This document shows positions 5,745-18,609 of a DNA stretch of 24,964 nt, piece by piece. The notes beneath the pieces were generated by a model, which did no database searches, was not told the DNA's origin, and saw nothing but the letters and a program-made list of their open reading frames with translations. This DNA is from a virus. The DNA lies in the IMG/VR virus record IMGVR_UViG_3300046674_000403, positions 1-24,964 of that record; one strand, 5' to 3'. A program made the position numbers and the translations under genes. The number at the start of each line of letters is the position of its first letter. Positions within the stretch are counted from its first letter, which is position 1.

Positions 5745-7808
5745 CTATGCCGACGGCCAGGACGCGACCACCGTGCCGCGGCAGCGGATACCGCCGTCGC
5801 AGTTGATGTAACCGCCCGTGCCGTACGCCGCCTCGGCATCCTCGATGCTGGGGAAGGCAGTTCCGTCGATCTCGCCGCACGGCCCGCACTGGTTGCCGTC
5901 GTGGACCTCGGTCGCAGTGATGACGACGTCTGCCGGTCCAGCTCGGACGACGGCGAGGCGCCCGGTGTTCTGTGCGCGGTGCAGTGCGCCACCGAGCTGG
6001 TCACGCCGGAACCAGCCCTTGACGGCCCGTAGCGCATCACCCACAGCGGAGGCGACGGCCCGGCCCGTGGCGCCCGGCCGGGCGAGACGCAGTGCCTCCC
6101 TGCCGGCGGCGCCAGCCAGCCCAGAGGCCAGCAGAGATGCGATGGCCGGGGCCAGGTCGGCGAGTTCACTGCCGAAAGCGGCCCGCAAGGGGCTTCCGCC
6201 GTTGTGCTTGGCGAAGGGGCTGTCGACGGTGGGCAGCTCGATCCTGACGCCCTGGTCGGCAGCCTCGCGCACCATCCGCGCCGCAGCCTGCCCGGCCATC
6301 ATCGCGAGGGAGCGTTGCAGGGCGACGGCTGCGTCGTCCCACGACACGGCGAGAGCAGCGAGGGCTACGGTGTCGCCGTTGTCGACGGCGGTCTCGATCT
6401 GTCGTTCCAGGTCGTCGATCCATCCGGATTCGATGCCGTCCCACGTGGCGGTGAGGCTGTCGAGTGCGGCGTTGAAGTCCGCTCGGACGTCCTCCAGGTC
6501 GGTGTCGGCCTGGTCGCCGAGCTTGAGGCGCGTGCCGCTGGTGCGGGGCGTTTGCCGCGGCAGGGCGGCAGCCAGTCGGCGGGTGAGATGCGCGGTGGGA
6601 GGGGGCGGGGCGGAGTCCGGGGTGCCGCGCCAGCGCATCGGCGGGAGGCCCACGGTGTGCAGTACGTCATCCGGCTCCCAGCCGGCGGCGGCGAGTGCGG
6701 CGGCGGCGTTGCTCTTGGCTGTCAGCTCGGCGTTCTCGGCCTCCTCGTCCTCGGGGACTGGGCTGGAGTAGTCAAACTCCAGGTCGGCTGCGGCCGGCCC
6801 GAACAGCGGCAGCAGGTCGTGGTTCAACGCCTGCTTGATGCGCTCGAGGCGCGGCACGATCAGCCAGCGTGCGAACACCACCTCGCCGGCCTCGGCGTTC
6901 GCCCTGTTGACGTCGTCGACGGAGCCGAGGAGGGGCTTAGGGAAGCCGAACGCCTCGCGGATCAACTCACGGGACTGGTTGCGGAGCTCAGCGAACTGCA
7001 TGTCCCGCTGGGAGTACTTCCGGTCGACCCACTCGCCCTGCTCGAGGATGGCGACGCGGTGGGCGTTGGCGACGCCGCGGTGCTGCTCGTTCCAGCGGTA
7101 CCGCATCTCGTCGAACTCGGGGTCGGAGAGGCGCTTGTCGACGCGGATGATGCCGCCGGGCTCCGCGCTGTTGAGGAAGAAGTTGCGGTTCCACTCAGCG
7201 CTGTACTTCGTGGCGTCGAGATCGGTGAGGACGGACTGCACCGGGCCCATGCCGCGGTACGGATCCAGCGGGTTGGGGGTCCGCAGGAAGATGACCTCGT
7301 CAAGGGCGAGGGGTACCTTCTCGCCGTCGGGGCTGGTGTAGATGTACCCGGCGAGGTAGTTCGTGACGGACGGAACGGGTGCCATCCGGTCCGGCCGGAC
7401 GGGCCACAGCTCCAGCGGGATCGTGGAGCGCGGGTTCCGGGCGATCACCCACCATGCCTCGCCGGTGAGGTCGTGGTGCTGCTGGAACGACTCGACGAAC
7501 TCCTGCTGCGGCATGAACGGGTTGGGCTTGTTCCACAGGTCGAGGGCGGCGTGTCGGGTCACCTCGACCCGGTCCTCCTCGAGGCCGGACGGCGCCTTGC
7601 GGTAGAGCTTCCACTGCTGCTGGGCGGTGGCGTTGGATGTGCGGTTGACGATGGCGAAGAGCGTGCCCACGGCGCCCATCGCCCGCATCTGCGCGGTCGA
7701 GTTACTGTGCTGGCCCCACGGAAGCGTCACGCTGCGGGTCGGCGCGAAGGGGACGGGGGCGCGGCCGAGCAGGGAGCGGAGGAACGACGCCACGGCCACA
7801 CCCTTCAT
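5745..7808 (-). CDS. portal protein fused to a MuF-like C-terminal domain (687 aa)
   Basis: The N-terminal ~400 residues are an HK97-type portal: VNRTSNATAQQQWKLYR, LWNKPNPFMPQQEFVESFQQ, HHDLTGEAWWVIARN, PLELWPVRPDRM, LRTPNPLDPYRGMGPVQSVL, and REAFGFPKPLLGSVDDVNRA near residue 310. A Pro/Ala-rich linker follows. The rest is helical and ends in a MuF/head-morphogenesis-type segment with VHDGNQCGPCGEIDGTAF and a final NCDGGIRCRG. The start chosen is the ATG that forms an ATGA overlap with the upstream membrane gene; an in-frame GTG lies six codons earlier. The portal forms the dodecameric DNA gate; the MuF part is usually a separate minor capsid protein that may enter the head. Confidence 0.9.
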   Translation of the reverse strand: MKGVAVASFLRSLLGRAPVPFAPTRSVTLPWGQHSNSTAQMRAMGAVGTLFAIVNRTSNATAQQQWKLYRKAPSGLEEDRVEVTRHAALDLWNKPNPFMPQQEFVESFQQHHDLTGEAWWVIARNPRSTIPLELWPVRPDRMAPVPSVTNYLAGYIYTSPDGEKVPLALDEVIFLRTPNPLDPYRGMGPVQSVLTDLDATKYSAEWNRNFFLNSAEPGGIIRVDKRLSDPEFDEMRYRWNEQHRGVANAHRVAILEQGEWVDRKYSQRDMQFAELRNQSRELIREAFGFPKPLLGSVDDVNRANAEAGEVVFARWLIVPRLERIKQALNHDLLPLFGPAAADLEFDYSSPVPEDEEAENAELTAKSNAAAALAAAGWEPDDVLHTVGLPPMRWRGTPDSAPPPPTAHLTRRLAAALPRQTPRTSGTRLKLGDQADTDLEDVRADFNAALDSLTATWDGIESGWIDDLERQIETAVDNGDTVALAALAVSWDDAAVALQRSLAMMAGQAAARMVREAADQGVRIELPTVDSPFAKHNGGSPLRAAFGSELADLAPAIASLLASGLAGAAGREALRLARPGATGRAVASAVGDALRAVKGWFRRDQLGGALHRAQNTGRLAVVRAGPADVVITATEVHDGNQCGPCGEIDGTAFPSIEDAEAAYGTGGYINCDGGIRCRGTVVASWPSA

Positions 7809-11587: not shown

Positions 11588-12313
11588 TCAGGCAGCGGCA
11601 CTGGCCACCGCCGGGACGGGCGCGGGGTCGGTCTGGGGAAGGGCGGCCAGCAGTACCGCCATGCGGGTGTAGTCGCGGCCCCCCACGGTGAGCTTCTTCT
11701 TCTCCACCACGGGCACCCCGAGGGAGGTCAGATGGTCGCTCAGGTCGGCCACCTCCCAGCCCCCCAGGAGAGAGCGCCTCTCGCCCTCTTCCAGGACCTG
11801 GGAGAGGTGCGCGGCGGTGCCCTGCTTGGTGAGTCCGGCGACGTGCCGGATGAGGGCGTAGAGGGTCGCGGCCAGCGGCGCGTCCTGGATCTCGTCGTCC
11901 TCCTGGCCGTCGACCGCGGAGGCGTCGTCAGGCTTGGCCGGGGAGGACTTCTCGGCGGAGCTGGTGGCTGGTCGTTCCTGACCGGCGACCAGGGCGGCCA
12001 GCACCCACAGGGTGAGGCCGCCGGCGGCTGCGGTGGGCAGCCACTTGCCGACCAGCGGCCACAGCAGGAACAGGACACCGGCGGTGCTTCCGATCCGCTT
12101 GGCCCAGGTGACGAACGGGTGCTCGGCGACGTCGGCCGGGGCCTGTGGTGCTGGGTGGCTGGCGCAGTGCTCGGCGTGCGACGGCTTCTTGTGGTCGGGG
12201 TGCCCGCACGGGTCGGGCTCGGCGACGGTGGAGCGTGCCTTCACGGCCGAAATGATCCGGCGGTTGCCCCGGGCGACCGCCTTCAGGCTGACGCCCTGCA
12301 GCAGCTCTCGCAT
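11588..12313 (-). CDS. membrane protein with C-terminal winged-helix-like domain, plasmid-transfer type (241 aa)
   Basis: The ATG overlaps the upstream stop (TGATG). A basic start (MRELLQGVSLKAVARGNRRI) is followed by a Cys/His motif C-x2-PDH...HAEHC at residues 36-50 that could hold a metal. Two hydrophobic segments lie near residues 75-91 and 94-111, then an acidic linker. The C-terminal domain (about 146-222) has LYALIRHVAGLTKQGTAAHL, WEVADLSDHLTSLGVPV and KKLTVGGRDYTRM, a winged-helix-like pattern. From memory, such domains occur in proteins beside tra/spd genes of Streptomyces plasmids and integrative elements; this is a resemblance, not a proof. It is the last gene of the operon. Confidence 0.6.
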   Translation of the reverse strand: MRELLQGVSLKAVARGNRRIISAVKARSTVAEPDPCGHPDHKKPSHAEHCASHPAPQAPADVAEHPFVTWAKRIGSTAGVLFLLWPLVGKWLPTAAAGGLTLWVLAALVAGQERPATSSAEKSSPAKPDDASAVDGQEDDEIQDAPLAATLYALIRHVAGLTKQGTAAHLSQVLEEGERRSLLGGWEVADLSDHLTSLGVPVVEKKKLTVGGRDYTRMAVLLAALPQTDPAPVPAVASAAA

Positions 12314-12720
12314 CAGGCACCGAACCCGTGCAGCAGGGCCGCCAGGATGGTCGCGGGGATGGCGAGCAGGCCGCCGGCGGTGGAGAGGGCGCCGGGCAGA
12401 GCGACACCCACGATCAGGTCCTTGCCCATGCTGGGCTTGGTGCCGAACCCGATCAGGATCAGGATCAGGGCGACCGCTCCGGCGCCGATCGGGCCGACGG
12501 TGCCGGACTGCGCGTCGAGGGACTGGCTGATGGTGGTGGAGACGGTGCCGATCTGGCTCAGGGCCTGCCCGGCGTTGGCGGCCAGCAGCCCGAGCGCGGC
12601 GCCCCAGTAGATGACGTGGTGGCTCTTGACCGGCTGCAGTTTGCCGCCCCCGCGCTTGTGCAGGGCCAGGGCGATGACGATCAGCAGGATCATGCCGCCG
12701 GACCCGATGGCTCCGAACAT
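12313..12720 (-). CDS. polytopic membrane protein (135 aa)
   Basis: GGGAG lies eight bases before the ATG. About four hydrophobic segments are seen: residues 4-20 (AIGSGGMILLIVIALAL), 37-55 (VIYWGAALGLLAANAGQAL), 74-93 (VGPIGAGAVALILILIGFG) and 101-130. Between the second and third is a polar loop with SQIGTVSTTISQSLDAQSG. The protein is small and Gly/Ala-rich. It sits in a run of membrane-protein genes whose largest member resembles SpdB-like plasmid spread proteins. No family is recognised for this one. Confidence 0.65.
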   Translation of the reverse strand: MFGAIGSGGMILLIVIALALHKRGGGKLQPVKSHHVIYWGAALGLLAANAGQALSQIGTVSTTISQSLDAQSGTVGPIGAGAVALILILIGFGTKPSMGKDLIVGVALPGALSTAGGLLAIPATILAALLHGFGA

Positions 12721-12739
12721 GGTGTGAACTCCCGTGCTG

Positions 12740-13381
12740 TCAGTGGTTGTGGATCAGGTGGCCGGTGGCGGCGAGCAGGGGCGCGAGCTGGCAGACGGCG
12801 GCGAGAGCGGAGCTGACCGGGATGCGGACCAGCACCAGCACGCTGACCCGCCGCAGGCCGCGCACCTGCGAGATCGGAAGCGCCGCGACGCCCCGGATGC
12901 GCATGTCGAGTGCGATGGCTGCGGCGAGCACGCCCACCCCGGGCCAGTAGGGGAGGGAGTCGACCCACTGGACGAGGCCGACCGAGTAGCCGACCGACGC
13001 GGACAGGGCGGTGAGGGTGAGCCAGCGGCGGAAGCGCTTCGCGCGTTCGGCGTGGTGCAGTCTCCACGGCAGGGCTGCCGCGACCTGTGCCCGGCGGCGC
13101 CTGCCGGCGTCTTCGCGGCGGTGGCGCCGGATGCGGGCGTGGGGGTGCTCCCCCGCCCTGGCGTGGGCGTCGTCGTCTTCCTGGCGCTGGCGCCGGTGGC
13201 GTTCGTCTGGGGTTTCGGTGATGGTGCGGCCGAGTTGGTCCATGGCTTCGACGAGGCGCTCTTGGCCGGTCTCGGCGGAGGCGATGCGCTCCGGCGTCCA
13301 GACGTGGGCTGAGGTGTACTCCCACCAGGTCGTGTGGAGGCCGACGGTGGGCGCGTACTTGGGCGGGGGTGGTGTGGTCAT
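12740..13381 (-). CDS. membrane protein with long charged N-terminus (213 aa)
   Basis: The ATG overlaps the stop of the 29-codon gene (ATGA) and has GGAGG five bases upstream. Residues 1-118 are soluble: a start MTTPPPPKYAPTVGLHTTWW, a helix around ETGQERLVEAMDQLGRTI, and then a very basic/acidic stretch of Arg, His, Glu and Asp. Hydrophobic segments follow at about 119-140, 146-168 and 178-207. The layout is a large cytoplasmic domain anchored by three helices. No family is recognised; operon context links it to the SpdB-like gene. Confidence 0.6.
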   Translation of the reverse strand: MTTPPPPKYAPTVGLHTTWWEYTSAHVWTPERIASAETGQERLVEAMDQLGRTITETPDERHRRQRQEDDDAHARAGEHPHARIRRHRREDAGRRRRAQVAAALPWRLHHAERAKRFRRWLTLTALSASVGYSVGLVQWVDSLPYWPGVGVLAAAIALDMRIRGVAALPISQVRGLRRVSVLVLVRIPVSSALAAVCQLAPLLAATGHLIHNH

Positions 13382-13467
13382 CGGGGCCTCCGGGTGAGGA
13401 GGAGCAGGCCGTAGGCGGCGCCGATGGCGTCGATGATGACGAGCACGATGGAGATGGCGTCGGCCAT
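13378..13467 (-). CDS. 29-aa single-helix membrane peptide
   Basis: The frame starts at an ATG with GGAG five bases upstream, one base after the stop of the gene above it, and ends in a TGA that overlaps the next ATG by ATGA. The peptide is MADAISIVLVIIDAIGAAYG followed by LLLLTRRPR: one hydrophobic helix with a basic end. The tight spacing on both sides supports real translation. Function unknown. Confidence 0.6.
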   Translation of the reverse strand: MADAISIVLVIIDAIGAAYGLLLLTRRPR

Positions 13468-13468
13468 G

Positions 13469-13627
13469 TCAGCTCCACTCCTTCGGCGCCAGGCCGCCGG
13501 CCTTGAGCCAGCCGGCCGTGCGGCGGTCGATGCCGCTGATCTCCTTGGCGCGCCGCTTGCGTTCCTTCGCGGTGCGGCCGGTGGGCGGGGCGTCTGTGGC
13601 GCCGGTGAGCTTCGTCCAGATGCCCAT
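13469..13627 (-). CDS. small basic protein (52 aa)
   Basis: The ATG overlaps the stop of the SpdB-like gene by one base. The protein starts MGIWTKLTGATDAPPTGRTA, has a strongly basic helix KERKRRAKEISGIDRRTAGW, and ends LKAGGLAPKEWS. The basic helix could bind nucleic acid or membrane lipid. No family is recognised. Overlap with the upstream gene and a one-base gap to the downstream gene show that it is an operon member. Confidence 0.6.
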   Translation of the reverse strand: MGIWTKLTGATDAPPTGRTAKERKRRAKEISGIDRRTAGWLKAGGLAPKEWS

Positions 13628-14691
13628 CAGCGGGCCGCCTTGCCGAGGATGGCCGCGCGCAGGTCCGTGGCCTCACGGCGGGAGAGGCCGAGCTGGGACT
13701 GCAGGGTCTCGATGGTGACGGGTCGCGCCGGCTTGCCCTTGCGGGCCTCGCGGTCGAGCTTGCGGGCGGCGGCCAGGCGTTGGGCGCCGGTCATCTCCGT
13801 GGGTGGCGTGCTTACCGGCGAGGTGACCACCTCGCGGCGCTGGAACCCGGCCGAGATGGTTGCCGGTGAGCGGTCATGTCGGTGGTCATGTGGCCGGTCA
13901 TCGGGGTGGTCACCCCAGGAGTCCGAGGTGACCGACGAGGTGACCGGTGAGATGACCAGTCCGAGGGCCGCCAACTGGGCTTCGATGTCGTCGTCACTGG
14001 CGTCCGGGGAGAGGGCGCGGGCGTACTCGGCGGCCCGCTCGGCGTCGGTCGGCCTGTCGTCCTCGACGTGCGGGTAGGCGGCGGTGTGCGCGGCGAGCTG
14101 CTGGCGGGAGCGGGCGAGGCGCCGGCGGACGGCGGCGAGCGCGAGTTCCCCGCCGACCTCTGCCATCTCCAGCTCGACCCACTGCTGGGTGTCCGGGTCG
14201 AGGGCCTTGGCGTGGTGCCGCAGGACGAGTACCCACAGGGCCTTGACGCCGACGGAGATGGCGGCGCCGACGATGCCGGCTGCGAGGTGACCGCCGCGGG
14301 CGCCTTCGGTGATGAGCGCGCCAACGGCGATGGCGAGGCCGAGGTAGCCGGCGATCTGCGGACCGGTGGCCTTGTCGGGCTCGTACCGGGCGAGCCATTC
14401 GAGGGCGAGGCAGGTCATCCACAGCAGGTCGAAGGTGGCGGCTCCGCCGTAGGCGATGGCGGGGTGGGCGGCGGTGGTGAGGAGGTGGCCGATGGCGCTG
14501 GTGGACCAGGCGATGCAGCCGGCGCCGACGGTGATGGCCACGCCGGTGACGGCGGTGAGGACGATCTGGTCCCAGTCGCAGGGCGGCCGGGGCTGGTCGA
14601 CGGTAACGGTGCGGGGTGCCAGGTGGGTCTTGCCCTCGCGGGTGACGGGCACCATCTCGGTGCGCTCGACGGTGCGGGTGCGGGGCTTCAT
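13627..14691 (-). CDS. SpdB-like membrane protein of Streptomyces plasmid-spread type (354 aa)
   Basis: The ATG overlaps the upstream TGA (ATGA). The N-terminus (RTRTVERTEMVPVTREGKTH, then P..P.DWD) is followed by four membrane segments near residues 42-64, 78-100, 112-130 and 135-157. Key stretches are AIAYGGAATFDLLWMTCLAL, EWLARYEP and VKALWVLVLRHHAKALDPDT, then a long helix (EVGGELALAAVRRRLARSRQ). The C-terminus has an HTH-like segment (VTIETLQSQLGLSRREATDL). From memory this matches the proteins annotated SpdB or 'protein transporter Sec' in Streptomyces conjugative plasmids, which help plasmids spread between hyphal compartments. No TraB translocase gene is in the window. Confidence 0.65.
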   Translation of the reverse strand: MKPRTRTVERTEMVPVTREGKTHLAPRTVTVDQPRPPCDWDQIVLTAVTGVAITVGAGCIAWSTSAIGHLLTTAAHPAIAYGGAATFDLLWMTCLALEWLARYEPDKATGPQIAGYLGLAIAVGALITEGARGGHLAAGIVGAAISVGVKALWVLVLRHHAKALDPDTQQWVELEMAEVGGELALAAVRRRLARSRQQLAAHTAAYPHVEDDRPTDAERAAEYARALSPDASDDDIEAQLAALGLVISPVTSSVTSDSWGDHPDDRPHDHRHDRSPATISAGFQRREVVTSPVSTPPTEMTGAQRLAAARKLDREARKGKPARPVTIETLQSQLGLSRREATDLRAAILGKAAR

Positions 14692-14831
14692 CGGGTCGCC
14701 CCGGTGGTGCGCGGGGCGGGCTTCGGGCGGCCGACGGTGGCGGGGGTGCGGCGGAGGGTCTTGCCGGGGTCGCGCTGCGGCAGCGGGTCGGGGGCCGAGC
14801 GGGGGCGCGCGCTACTGTTCGTTCGGGTCAT
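14688..14831 (-). CDS. small basic, proline-rich protein (47 aa)
   Basis: The frame starts MTRTNSSARPRSAPDPLPQR and ends RTTGATR in a TGA overlapping the next ATG by four bases (ATGA). It is rich in Arg, Pro and Thr and is probably unstructured. An AGGAG lies 12 bases upstream, rather far for a ribosome binding site. Its exact fit between two operon genes is the main support. It may serve chiefly to couple translation into the SpdB-like gene. Confidence 0.45.
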   Translation of the reverse strand: MTRTNSSARPRSAPDPLPQRDPGKTLRRTPATVGRPKPAPRTTGATR

Positions 14832-14917
14832 GGGAGGGCATATCTCCTGTGGTCAAGGGCCTGGGCTGGGGCTGCGATCCCCGCGCCTGGGCCCGTTCTG
14901 TGTTCGGGTGCTGCTGG

Positions 14918-15094
14918 CTACAGGTGCTCGTCGATGAGGCGGCGGATCACGGCGGCGCGGCTGGTGCCGGCGCCGACGAGCGCGTCGAGCTTGGCGAGCT
15001 GGGGTCCGTAGAGGGTGATGCCGCCGATGACCTTCTTGGTCGGGGGCGTGCGGGAACTGCCGGGCTGGGCCGGCTTGGTGTCGGCTTCATGCAT
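14918..15094 (-). CDS. ribbon-helix-helix regulator, first gene of the membrane operon (58 aa)
   Basis: The chosen start gives MHEADTKPAQPGSS. Earlier in-frame Met codons arise from the TGCATATGCA operator repeats and are unlikely starts. The C-terminal part, KKVIGGITLYGPQLAKLDAL then VGAGTSRAAVIRRLIDEHL, is a CopG/Arc-type RHH domain: a beta strand, then helix, turn SRAAVIR, helix. There is no ribosome binding site; the ATG lies six bases after a TACGTT -10 box, so it is probably translated leaderless. It would bind DNA as a dimer, most likely the three palindromes upstream, and control its own operon. Confidence 0.7.
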   Translation of the reverse strand: MHEADTKPAQPGSSRTPPTKKVIGGITLYGPQLAKLDALVGAGTSRAAVIRRLIDEHL

Positions 15095-15156
15095 ATGCAC
15101 AACGTAGCAGTCGTGCATATGCACAGCAAGAGGCTTCCTCGACGTATGCATATGCA
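15090..15156. promoter_or_regulatory. three TGCATATGCA operators in a divergent control region
   Basis: Exact copies of the palindrome TGCATATGCA lie at 15090-15099, 15114-15123 (here extended to GTGCATATGCAC) and 15147-15156. The first overlaps the ATG of the minus-strand RHH gene. The second and third fall inside the -35/-10 spacers of the two proposed divergent promoters. In a genome of about 70% GC, three copies of a 60% AT palindrome within 67 bases are not expected by chance. The likely ligands are the flanking RHH proteins. Confidence 0.8.
15101..15129 (-). promoter_or_regulatory. proposed promoter of the membrane-protein operon
   Basis: On the minus strand, -35 TTGCTG (15124-15129) and -10 TACGTT (15101-15106) are 17 bases apart. 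The ATG of the RHH gene begins six bases after the -10 box, the spacing expected for transcription starting at the ATG itself. The second operator fills the part of the spacer next to the -35 box, so repressor binding would block RNA polymerase. Confidence 0.6.
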
Positions 15157-15167
15157 GCCTCTAGCCT
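15139..15167 (+). promoter_or_regulatory. proposed promoter of the plus-strand RHH gene
   Basis: On the plus strand, -35 TCGACG (15139-15144) and -10 TAGCCT (15162-15167) are 17 bases apart, and the ATG starts six bases after the -10 box. This mirrors the minus-strand promoter exactly. The third operator lies inside the spacer. AGAGGCT (15129-15135) and AGCCTCT (15156-15162) form a further inverted repeat around it. Confidence 0.6.
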
Positions 15168-15173
15168 GGCCGC

Positions 15174-15368
15174 ATGGTCAGCCGCGCGAAGGACACCCAC
15201 ACCACCAACCGCGTCGTGCGCGTACCCGACGCCGACTGGGATGCCCTCGGCGCGCGGGCCGGCGCCCGGAACCGCGCTCAGGTGATCCGCGACCTTGTCG
15301 CCTGGTACCTGCGGCGCCCTGGGGCGAAGTTGCCAGAGCGCCCGCCGGTGGACACGACGGGCGCCTGA
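15174..15368 (+). CDS. plus-strand ribbon-helix-helix protein (64 aa)
   Basis: The protein begins MVSRAKDTHTTNRVVRVPDA and continues DWDALGARAGARNRAQVIRD then LVAWYLRRPG. The strand TNRVVRVP followed by two helices with the turn ARNRAQVIR fits a CopG/Arc-type RHH fold. It is one of only two minus-to-plus exceptions in the window. It is divergent from the other RHH gene and shares the operator region. No ribosome binding site is seen, consistent with a leaderless transcript starting at its ATG. It may be the partner repressor or anti-repressor of the minus-strand RHH protein. Confidence 0.7.
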   Translation: MVSRAKDTHTTNRVVRVPDADWDALGARAGARNRAQVIRDLVAWYLRRPGAKLPERPPVDTTGA

Positions 15369-17613: not shown

Positions 17614-18131
17614 GACGTGGCCCGGGGCTGGCCTTCGCAGGTGCGGCAGTAGCCGACGGGCGTGGCGGCCGGGGTGTCGGCGGGCCCGTCGAGGGCGGCC
17701 ACCGTCGGGCACGGCCACGGGACGCCGTGACTGCTGGTGCACGCCGCGCAGAGCCCGGAGTCGTCGTGGTGCAGCGCCCGGACGACGGCGATGCGGGCCT
17801 CGGCGTCCCTGGCGCGGTCGGGCCAGTTGTTCATGAAGCAGCCGTAGTGGTGGTCGGCGTCGTTGAGGATCTTGCCGACCACGTCGAGCCGTTCCTCGGT
17901 CGTTGCCTGGTTCCACTGCCAGATCCACTGGCCCGGGGTGGGGACGGTCCGCTCGTCGAGGTGCGGCTCCTCGCCCTCGTGGAGCGCGGCGAGCGCGGCC
18001 TCGGCCTTCTCGGCGCGGGCGCGCCAGCGGGCCTTGCTGGCCTGGTCGTGCTCGATGCTCCGACGGAGCTCCGGCAGCGTGTTGTCGTGCAGGAACCGGA
18101 GCTGCTCAGCTAGGTCGGTGGGCTCGGTCAT
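17610..18131 (-). CDS. hypothetical phage protein with coiled coil and Cys motifs (173 aa)
   Basis: The protein starts MTEPTDLAEQLRFLHDNTLP and has a long charged helix (SKARWRARAEKAEAALAALH). The middle has WIWQWNQATTEERLDVVGKI then FMNNWPDRARDAEARIAVVR. The C-terminus has CAACTSSHGVPWPCPTVAAL and GYCRTCEG, two Cys pairs that could bind zinc. The CxxC...WPCPTVxALDG pattern is, from memory, frequent in Streptomyces phage proteins. It overlaps the genes on both sides by four bases. Function unknown. Confidence 0.65.
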   Translation of the reverse strand: MTEPTDLAEQLRFLHDNTLPELRRSIEHDQASKARWRARAEKAEAALAALHEGEEPHLDERTVPTPGQWIWQWNQATTEERLDVVGKILNDADHHYGCFMNNWPDRARDAEARIAVVRALHHDDSGLCAACTSSHGVPWPCPTVAALDGPADTPAATPVGYCRTCEGQPRATS

Positions 18132-18388
18132 GCGGCGCTCCTGGTGGTGTCGGTGGTGGTGATGCCGGGGAGGTGGAGTTGGTCGGTGCGGACGGCGAGG
18201 ATGACGGCGTGGGTCCGGTCGGCGGCGCGGAGCTTGGTGTAGATGCGGCCGAGGTGGGTGGTGATGGTGTGGTAGCTGACGTGGAGTGCGGTGGCGATCT
18301 GCTGGTTGGTTCGGCCGGCGGCGACGTGGTGGAGGACTTCGAGCTCTCGGTCGGTGAGGGGATCGCCGGGGTGGACGGGTGTGCTCAC
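18128..18388 (-). CDS. LuxR-type HTH protein (86 aa)
   Basis: The GTG start overlaps the upstream stop (GTGA). Residues 12-70 form a GerE/LuxR-type HTH: LTDRELEVLHHVAAGRTNQQ, IATALHVSYHTITTHLGRIY and TKLRAADRTHAVILAVR. The core residues E..VL..VA.G..N..IA..L..S..T...H...I..KL are all present. There is no receiver or sensor domain, so the protein is a stand-alone DNA-binding module, probably a transcriptional regulator of phage or host genes. Confidence 0.8.
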   Translation of the reverse strand: MSTPVHPGDPLTDRELEVLHHVAAGRTNQQIATALHVSYHTITTHLGRIYTKLRAADRTHAVILAVRTDQLHLPGITTTDTTRSAA

Positions 18389-18609
18389 GGCTGGTCTCCC
18401 TCGGGGATGAGGCCGGATGCGGTGGCGTCGAGGCGGAGTTGGATTTCGGCTTGTTCGGCGGCGGCCGCGCATCGGGCTTGGACGGTCTGCTCGTAGGCGT
18501 GTTCGGCGCGGGTGGTGGTGGGGCGGTAGTCGCGGACGAGGCCCGCGAGGACGGTGCCGACGACGGTGGTGAGGGCGGCGTACAGGCCGGCCTCCTCGGG
18601 CCCGGTCAC
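18385..18609 (-). CDS. hypothetical protein (74 aa)
   Basis: The GTG start overlaps the upstream stop (GTGA). MTGPEEAGLYAALTTVVGTV then LAGLVRDYRP suggests a short hydrophobic helix near the N-terminus; the rest is a helical region with many Ala and Glu (CAAAAEQAEIQLRLDATAS). No family is recognised. It is coupled to the LuxR-type gene below it. Confidence 0.55.
   Translation of the reverse strand: MTGPEEAGLYAALTTVVGTVLAGLVRDYRPTTTRAEHAYEQTVQARCAAAAEQAEIQLRLDATASGLIPEGDQP

Follow-up and report, generated by a model that had tools for sequence, protein, structure and literature searches.

Arc-like RHH proteins of actinophages: beta-strand class goes with operator class at putative divergent leaderless promoters

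INTRODUCTION

Three identical palindromes lie between two small divergent genes in the window, the whole 24,964-base stretch of an actinophage record that was analyzed here, and they raise the question of which protein reads them and what is controlled. RHH proteins are among the commonest regulators of phages, plasmids, and antitoxin systems. Arc and Mnt of phage P22 are small RHH repressors in which alternate residues of the N-terminal strand read the DNA sequence. To our knowledge, only a few structures reveal how these strand residues specify DNA. A first-pass annotation of the window proposed a compact switch with two RHH regulators, controlling a membrane-protein operon and perhaps the lysogenic or transfer state of the element. 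We compared the locus with its relatives and found an Arc-like family in which the strand of the plus-strand protein, RHH-A, goes with the sequence of the palindrome.

RESULTS

Three palindromes at two putative leaderless promoters

The palindrome TGCATATGCA occurs exactly three times in the window, with start-to-start steps of 24 and 33 bp (Table 1), and there is no further exact copy; 0.01 copies are expected by chance, and none of 100 shuffles contained three. The first-pass annotation had placed the three copies between two divergent genes, with each ATG six bases past a -10 box, one operator in each 17-bp spacer, and one over the minus-strand ATG, and direct reading of the sequence bears this out in full, both -10 boxes being TANNNT hexamers. 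The reported lack of a ribosome binding site at both genes also holds, with no Shine-Dalgarno sequence found upstream of either ATG. The claimed -35/-10 promoters fared less evenly. The -10/ATG layout is conserved in relatives, as described below, whereas the -35 boxes are poor, and because they are weak a sigma-70 consensus scan of the switch found no promoter; the promoters of the window therefore rest on conservation. According to PMC4681348, regulators of mobile elements, among them lambda cI, can be translated from leaderless mRNAs.

Table 1. Predicted features of the switch region in the window
Feature	Position	Strand	Description	Basis
Operator 1, TGCATATGCA	15090..15099		covers RHH-B start codon	read from sequence
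Operator 2, TGCATATGCA	15114..15123		within minus promoter -35/-10 spacer	read from sequence
Operator 3, TGCATATGCA	15147..15156		within plus promoter -35/-10 spacer	position conserved in relatives
Plus -35-like TCGACG	15139..15144	+	17-bp spacer	read from sequence
Plus -10 box TAGCCT	15162..15167	+	6 nt upstream of ATG 15174, leaderless	conserved
Minus -35-like TTGCTG	15124..15129	-	17-bp spacer	read from sequence
Minus -10 box TACGTT	15101..15106	-	6 nt upstream of ATG 15094 (15094-15092), leaderless	
RHH-A, 64 aa	15174..15368	+	Arc-like repressor, proposed TGCATATGCA reader	ORF, phrog_6506, column association
RHH-B, 58 aa	14918..15094	-	RHH-like, ATG inside operator 1	present only in part of triplet loci
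ORFs behind RHH-B	11588..14831	-	probable target operon	partly syntenic in relatives

The two divergent genes and their surroundings

RHH-A matches phrog_6506, an entry described as Arc-like repressor, with an E value of 1.1e-7 over positions 3 to 51 of the 59-position profile. Four other RHH-A homologues tested also match, the range including RHH-A being 2.9e-8 to 3.2e-3; the entry itself comes without an operator or a mechanism. The RHH-A beta strand reads T-x-N12-R-V14-V-R16, and its structure model, a monomer without the strand (pLDDT 77.5), has helices at residues 19 to 29 and 34 to 47. A Foldseek search of this model against the PDB gave no significant match (best E value of 1.2, with NikR chains among the weak ones), the RHH-A sequence found no useful match among solved structures, and the NCBIfam profiles reached no family call for RHH-A type proteins.

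RHH-B does not match the phrog_6506 profile. Against Pfam RHH_1 (PF01402; cut-off, 20.5 bits) both proteins fall below threshold, RHH-A with 12.3 bits and RHH-B with 14.3 bits (E value of 0.041). The RHH-B sequence matches solved structure 2kke, an uncharacterized protein (E value of 0.0085), and a modest model (pLDDT 70.5), for which Foldseek was uninformative, shows strands at 20 to 23 and 26 to 29 and helices at 30 to 41 and 46 to 57. The assignment to the RHH class is supported for RHH-A and weaker for RHH-B.

Behind RHH-B, one ORF of the probable operon encodes 47 aa, and putative membrane proteins, judged from hydrophobic stretches rather than computed, lie at 14691-13627, 13381-12740, 12720-12313, and 12313-11588. 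The minus strand of the window also carries a tailed-phage head module (terminase, portal, head protease, and major head protein). Another regulator of the same phage, a sigma-factor/LuxR-like helix-turn-helix protein, is encoded on the minus strand at 18131-18472 (phrog_3282; E value of 6.4e-12). A stretch of about 75 bases behind RHH-B, 14826-14901, is 88% identical to Streptomyces phage mu1/6 near the gp29/gp30 junction and may be a conserved element that acts in regulation or termination.

The triplet, its spacing, and the leaderless layout recur

When viral contigs were searched for palindromes in pairs, 115 stretches came up. Most of those above 60% G+C have two or three copies at spacings of 22 to 25 and 33 to 36 bp, and the gene beside these sites opens with MVSRAKDTHTTNRVVRV, VPN.PKTPNRV, or similar; six stretches above the cut (L016, L058, L060, L066, L075, and L091) have no RHH-A beside the sites. 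The G+C cut of 0.6 set aside low-GC loci whose TGCATATGCA repeats, at spacings of 6, 12, 15, 36, and others, look like other things. Some low-GC viral contigs (L043 at 6373-7158, L045 at 2169-2292, and others) contain long TGCATATGCA arrays in 33-, 12-, or 6-bp steps that are apparently unrelated to RHH-A. Searching the genome collection for exact triplets yielded five loci, all of them actinobacterial by title.

The leaderless arrangement is equally recurrent. Of 129 non-redundant upstream regions of RHH-A genes, 121 have an in-frame start with TANNNT 6 to 7 nt before it, versus 5 of 607 control ORFs, and TANNNT stands at this distance in all 25 distinct NRV/NRA-type upstreams. The spacer of the plus promoter holds the exact operator core in 61 of 72 promoters and the core with at most two mismatches in all 72, and a minus-strand TANNNT lies just beyond operator 1 in 73 of the 81 loci having at least two sites. 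The plus -35-like hexamer TCGACG is identical in 6 of 23 NRV promoters. Conserved triplets beside RHH genes, which the first-pass annotation had suggested looking for in related phages, are indeed present, together with their spacing and the leaderless promoter.

A profile built from 17 RHH-A proteins matches 40 of 392 Streptomyces genomes (two of them chosen by operator), 51 of 297 genomes in the order of genome G004 (operator-chosen G004 and G005 included), and 9 of 298 in the order of genome G003 (G003 included). Protein searches with RHH-A against cultured phages and plasmids, and with RHH-B against phages, gave nothing at an E value of 0.01. The window DNA has only short matches to cultured phages, namely SF3 and mu1/6. 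In SF3, the plus-strand gene beside the membrane protein belongs to another family and has other repeats.

One reader or two

If each of the two proteins recognizes the palindromes, they might oppose each other in the manner of CI and Cro, or RHH-B might pair with RHH-A and weaken it. Both genes are RHH-like, the start of RHH-B lies inside an operator, and its strand, KKVIGGITLY, is well conserved. In a search of viral contigs, 12 of 17 RHH-B matches were true, and every one of them adjoined an NRV operator. The remaining five are RHH-A proteins of the PRQ type; these loci, L152 to L156, had been candidates for an RHH-B with a different operator. However, RHH-B was matched in only 11 of 22 loci compared, the triplet is kept without it at seven loci (L133, L134, L138, L119, L120, L122, and L123), and no RHH-B adjoins the switch in the operator classes other than NRV. 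We regard a switch with two readers as possible, though on the doubtful side. Since RHH-B is found in only some of the triplet loci, RHH-A is the likely reader, and this pattern, along with the agreement between operator sequence and the RHH-A beta strand described below, points to a single operator reader rather than two equal regulators. What stands of the two-regulator proposal is its architecture, in which two divergent leaderless promoters carry sites that behave as operators for an RHH regulator; a second reader is doubtful.

Beta-strand class goes with operator class

Homologues of RHH-A found by protein search have other palindromes in the same layout, and the palindrome varies with the strand (Table 2). 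No core of another class occurred among the 106 upstreams of the NRV, HRS, ARP, ARQ, PRQ, and GRV classes; the 23 GRM upstreams, for which no exact core was defined, were left out of this scoring, and 11 loci with no readable strand motif were dropped from the strand/operator table. It was the operator that first led to most of the NRV loci, which makes this class partly circular, with L139 and L161 as independent cases. L139 has one exact TGCATATGCA and three one-mismatch copies, and L161 has GCATATGC cores with degenerate ends. In protein-first searches, TGCATATGCA was upstream of 16 of 16 NRV-type viral loci.

Table 2. Strand classes of RHH-A, their operators, and proposed code entries (each upstream counted once)
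Strand	Proposed entry, residues 12 and 14	Operator	8-bp core	Upstreams with cognate core
NRV (NRVVR)	N-V	TGCATATGCA	GCATATGC	24/24
HRS (HRSVR)	H-S	TGTACGTACA	GTACGTAC	25/25
ARP (ARPVR)	A-P	TGTACGTACA	GTACGTAC	6/7
ARQ	A-Q	TGTAGCTACA	GTAGCTAC	14/14
PRQ	P-Q	TGTAGCTACA	GTAGCTAC	13/13
GRV	G-V	TGACCGGTCA	GACCGGTC	17/23 (exact)
GRM	G-M	TGTRTAGTCA (individual sites: GGTGTATAGTCACC, GGTGTGTAGTCACC, or closely similar)		
KHG (one case)	K-G	TGTGGCCACA		
LRP (one case)		TGTATATACA		
VRQ (one case)		TGTACGTACA		
QRA (one case)		GGTGTATAGACACC		

Among 101 proteins less than 80% identical, columns 12 and 14 track operator type best, with values of 0.757 and 0.721, and the next column reaches 0.473 (L091, L214, L321, and L347, where the chosen palindrome was not the operator or was tied, were dropped). 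Columns 16, 22, and 34 are nearly invariant in the same set, and R16 is invariant. Alternate strand residues, positions 12 and 14 foremost, thus appear to go with operator sequence, an association that is statistical rather than biochemical. The helices behave differently: two quite different helix regions, the second 25 to 45% identical to the window protein, occur under NRV strands with one operator, and NRV, HRS, and ARP proteins have similar helices and differing operators. Judged across these sequences, the operator follows the beta strand rather than the helices. The code involves more than these two residues, since the NRA strand is split (TGTATATACA at L346 and TGCATATGCA at L023), and VRQ and ARQ differ in their operators. 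SRS-type homologues at L324 and L325 have odd-length palindromes, GGTGTGWCACACC, so their half sites are spaced unlike those of the other classes.

A natural experiment at residue 14

The GRV and GRM classes differ at residue 14. The operator center is CG in 24 and CC in 4 of the 28 GRV (Val14) loci, and TA in 23 and CA in 3 of the 26 GRM (Met14) loci; with CG/CC grouped against TA/CA, a grouping chosen after the counts were seen, the residue tracks the center in all 54 loci. The GRV sites at L273, L286 to L288, and L308 were picked again by hand where the script had taken another inverted repeat. In the closest contrast, L272 (Met) and L278 (Val) are otherwise identical over their first 44 residues, and their operators read GGTGTATAGTCACC and GGTGACCGGTCACC, respectively.

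In 42 of the 54 loci, the divergent neighbor belongs to a replication-initiation cluster, one member of which, from an NRV locus, matches phrog_2447 (E value of 3.9e-32). A tree of the divergent genes from 42 loci, a quick tree with some long branches, requires at least nine changes of residue 14 on well-supported branches, and residue and center agree in all nine of the independent pairs (P = 0.0039); the other 12 loci lie outside the tree, their neighbor being too short or not in the cluster. RHH-A is adjacent to its operator, and exchange of a cassette explains these pairs as well as point mutation does. The tree test therefore speaks for a matching of gene and operator, not for point mutations arising repeatedly, and the two may move together.

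Alternative roles for the palindromes

RHH centromere-binding proteins bind repeats ahead of their own gene and autoregulate, and the palindromes could in principle be a partition array read by a ParG- or omega-type protein. This is very improbable, in that no ParA-like gene was found among the window families scanned, there are only three sites, each at a fixed promoter position, and virion genes are present. We give still less weight to host-regulator or DNA methylation sites unrelated to the RHH genes. Such palindromes are generic, and the window does encode a DNA methyltransferase, but five whole actinobacterial genomes of 4 to 8 Mb hold only 3 to 6 TGCATATGCA copies each, three of which are the triplet cluster, and the operator changes along with the RHH-A beta strand. 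Likewise, in the phage records searched the operator is confined to the triplet cluster; 26 of 28 genomes or records searched, the 28 chosen from loci already found, hold TGCATATGCA. Equally remote is the possibility that RHH-A is an antitoxin controlling its own toxin-antitoxin operon: binding to promoter palindromes is common among RHH antitoxins, but RHH-A is followed by convergent genes, no toxin partner was recognized beside it, and its divergent partner varies between loci.

DISCUSSION

We consider it very likely that RHH-A is an Arc-like RHH autorepressor that would shut both leaderless promoters through the three palindromes. Asn12, Val14, and Arg16 of each strand would contact bases. 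A dimer on operator 3, between -35 and -10, would block the protein's own promoter, and occupation of operators 2 and 1 would block the spacer and the start of the divergent promoter and so shut off RHH-B together with the operon that follows. The replication-initiation gene that lies divergent in the GRV and GRM relatives would be as expected of a repressor holding the phage quiet, and it fits a lysogeny-type repressor better than the transfer switch that had also been suggested.

More broadly, the family is probably modular, with a natural recognition code in which matched pairs swap between phages and define separate immunity groups within one layout. The outer TG...CA would be read by the invariant Arg16 and the inner bases mainly by residues 12 and 14. 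The fold and this kind of switch are known; what is new is a well-populated natural specificity series, and since matched pairs occur at one fixed leaderless layout, natural variants already at hand allow a test of an RHH code. Such pairs amount to a ready-made specificity table that includes one-residue differences in the DNA-binding core. If confirmed, the code would make operators of uncharacterized actinophage repressors, and their immunity groups, predictable from sequence, and it could supply small orthogonal repressor/operator sets for Streptomyces. In the literature searched, with most subscription papers outside its scope, neither these operators nor an RHH strand/operator code came up.

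At the protein level, RHH-A resembles Arc and Mnt as a small, putative phage RHH repressor. Unlike them, the switch of the window is leaderless on both sides, has three spaced single palindromes, and comes with many natural strand/operator pairs. PMC3325190 describes alternate residues of the N-terminal strand as reading DNA in RHH proteins generally and, in AmrZ of Pseudomonas aeruginosa, Lys18, Val20, and Arg22 as contacting bases. AmrZ is likewise an autorepressor, and its alternate pattern corresponds to RHH-A positions 12, 14, and 16; it differs as a chromosomal regulator with a 5'-GGC half site and two dimers on an 18-bp site. Repressors and cognate sites also co-diverge among related actinophages in the Cluster A mycobacteriophages (PMC6550527), but there an HTH repressor has 20 to 30 genome-wide sites, against a single promoter pair with three palindromes in the window.

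Closer in layout are Gordonia phages, 18 records of which were returned at E values up to 1 with a distant NRV protein as query. The Arc-like repressors of Hedwig, Phistory, and Getalong are 39 to 47% identical to an NRV protein, and in each the RHH gene points away from a small gene on the minus strand, which in Phistory and Getalong is annotated as a membrane protein; an integrase lies nearby. Their repeats are class-specific and differ from those of the window in being imperfect and otherwise spaced. Hedwig (L360; NRT strand) has GGTGCATGTGCACC/GGTGCCAATGCACC upstream and Phistory (L361; KRG strand) has GGTGTGGGCACACC, both being GGTG...CACC repeats. The repeats of Getalong (L362; LHC strand) are GGTGYTATAACTCC-like. 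A distant homologue, preceded by GGTGGTTAACCACC and GGTGGTCAACCACC, lies on a Streptomyces dengpaensis plasmid (L366), and the module may therefore extend beyond phages.
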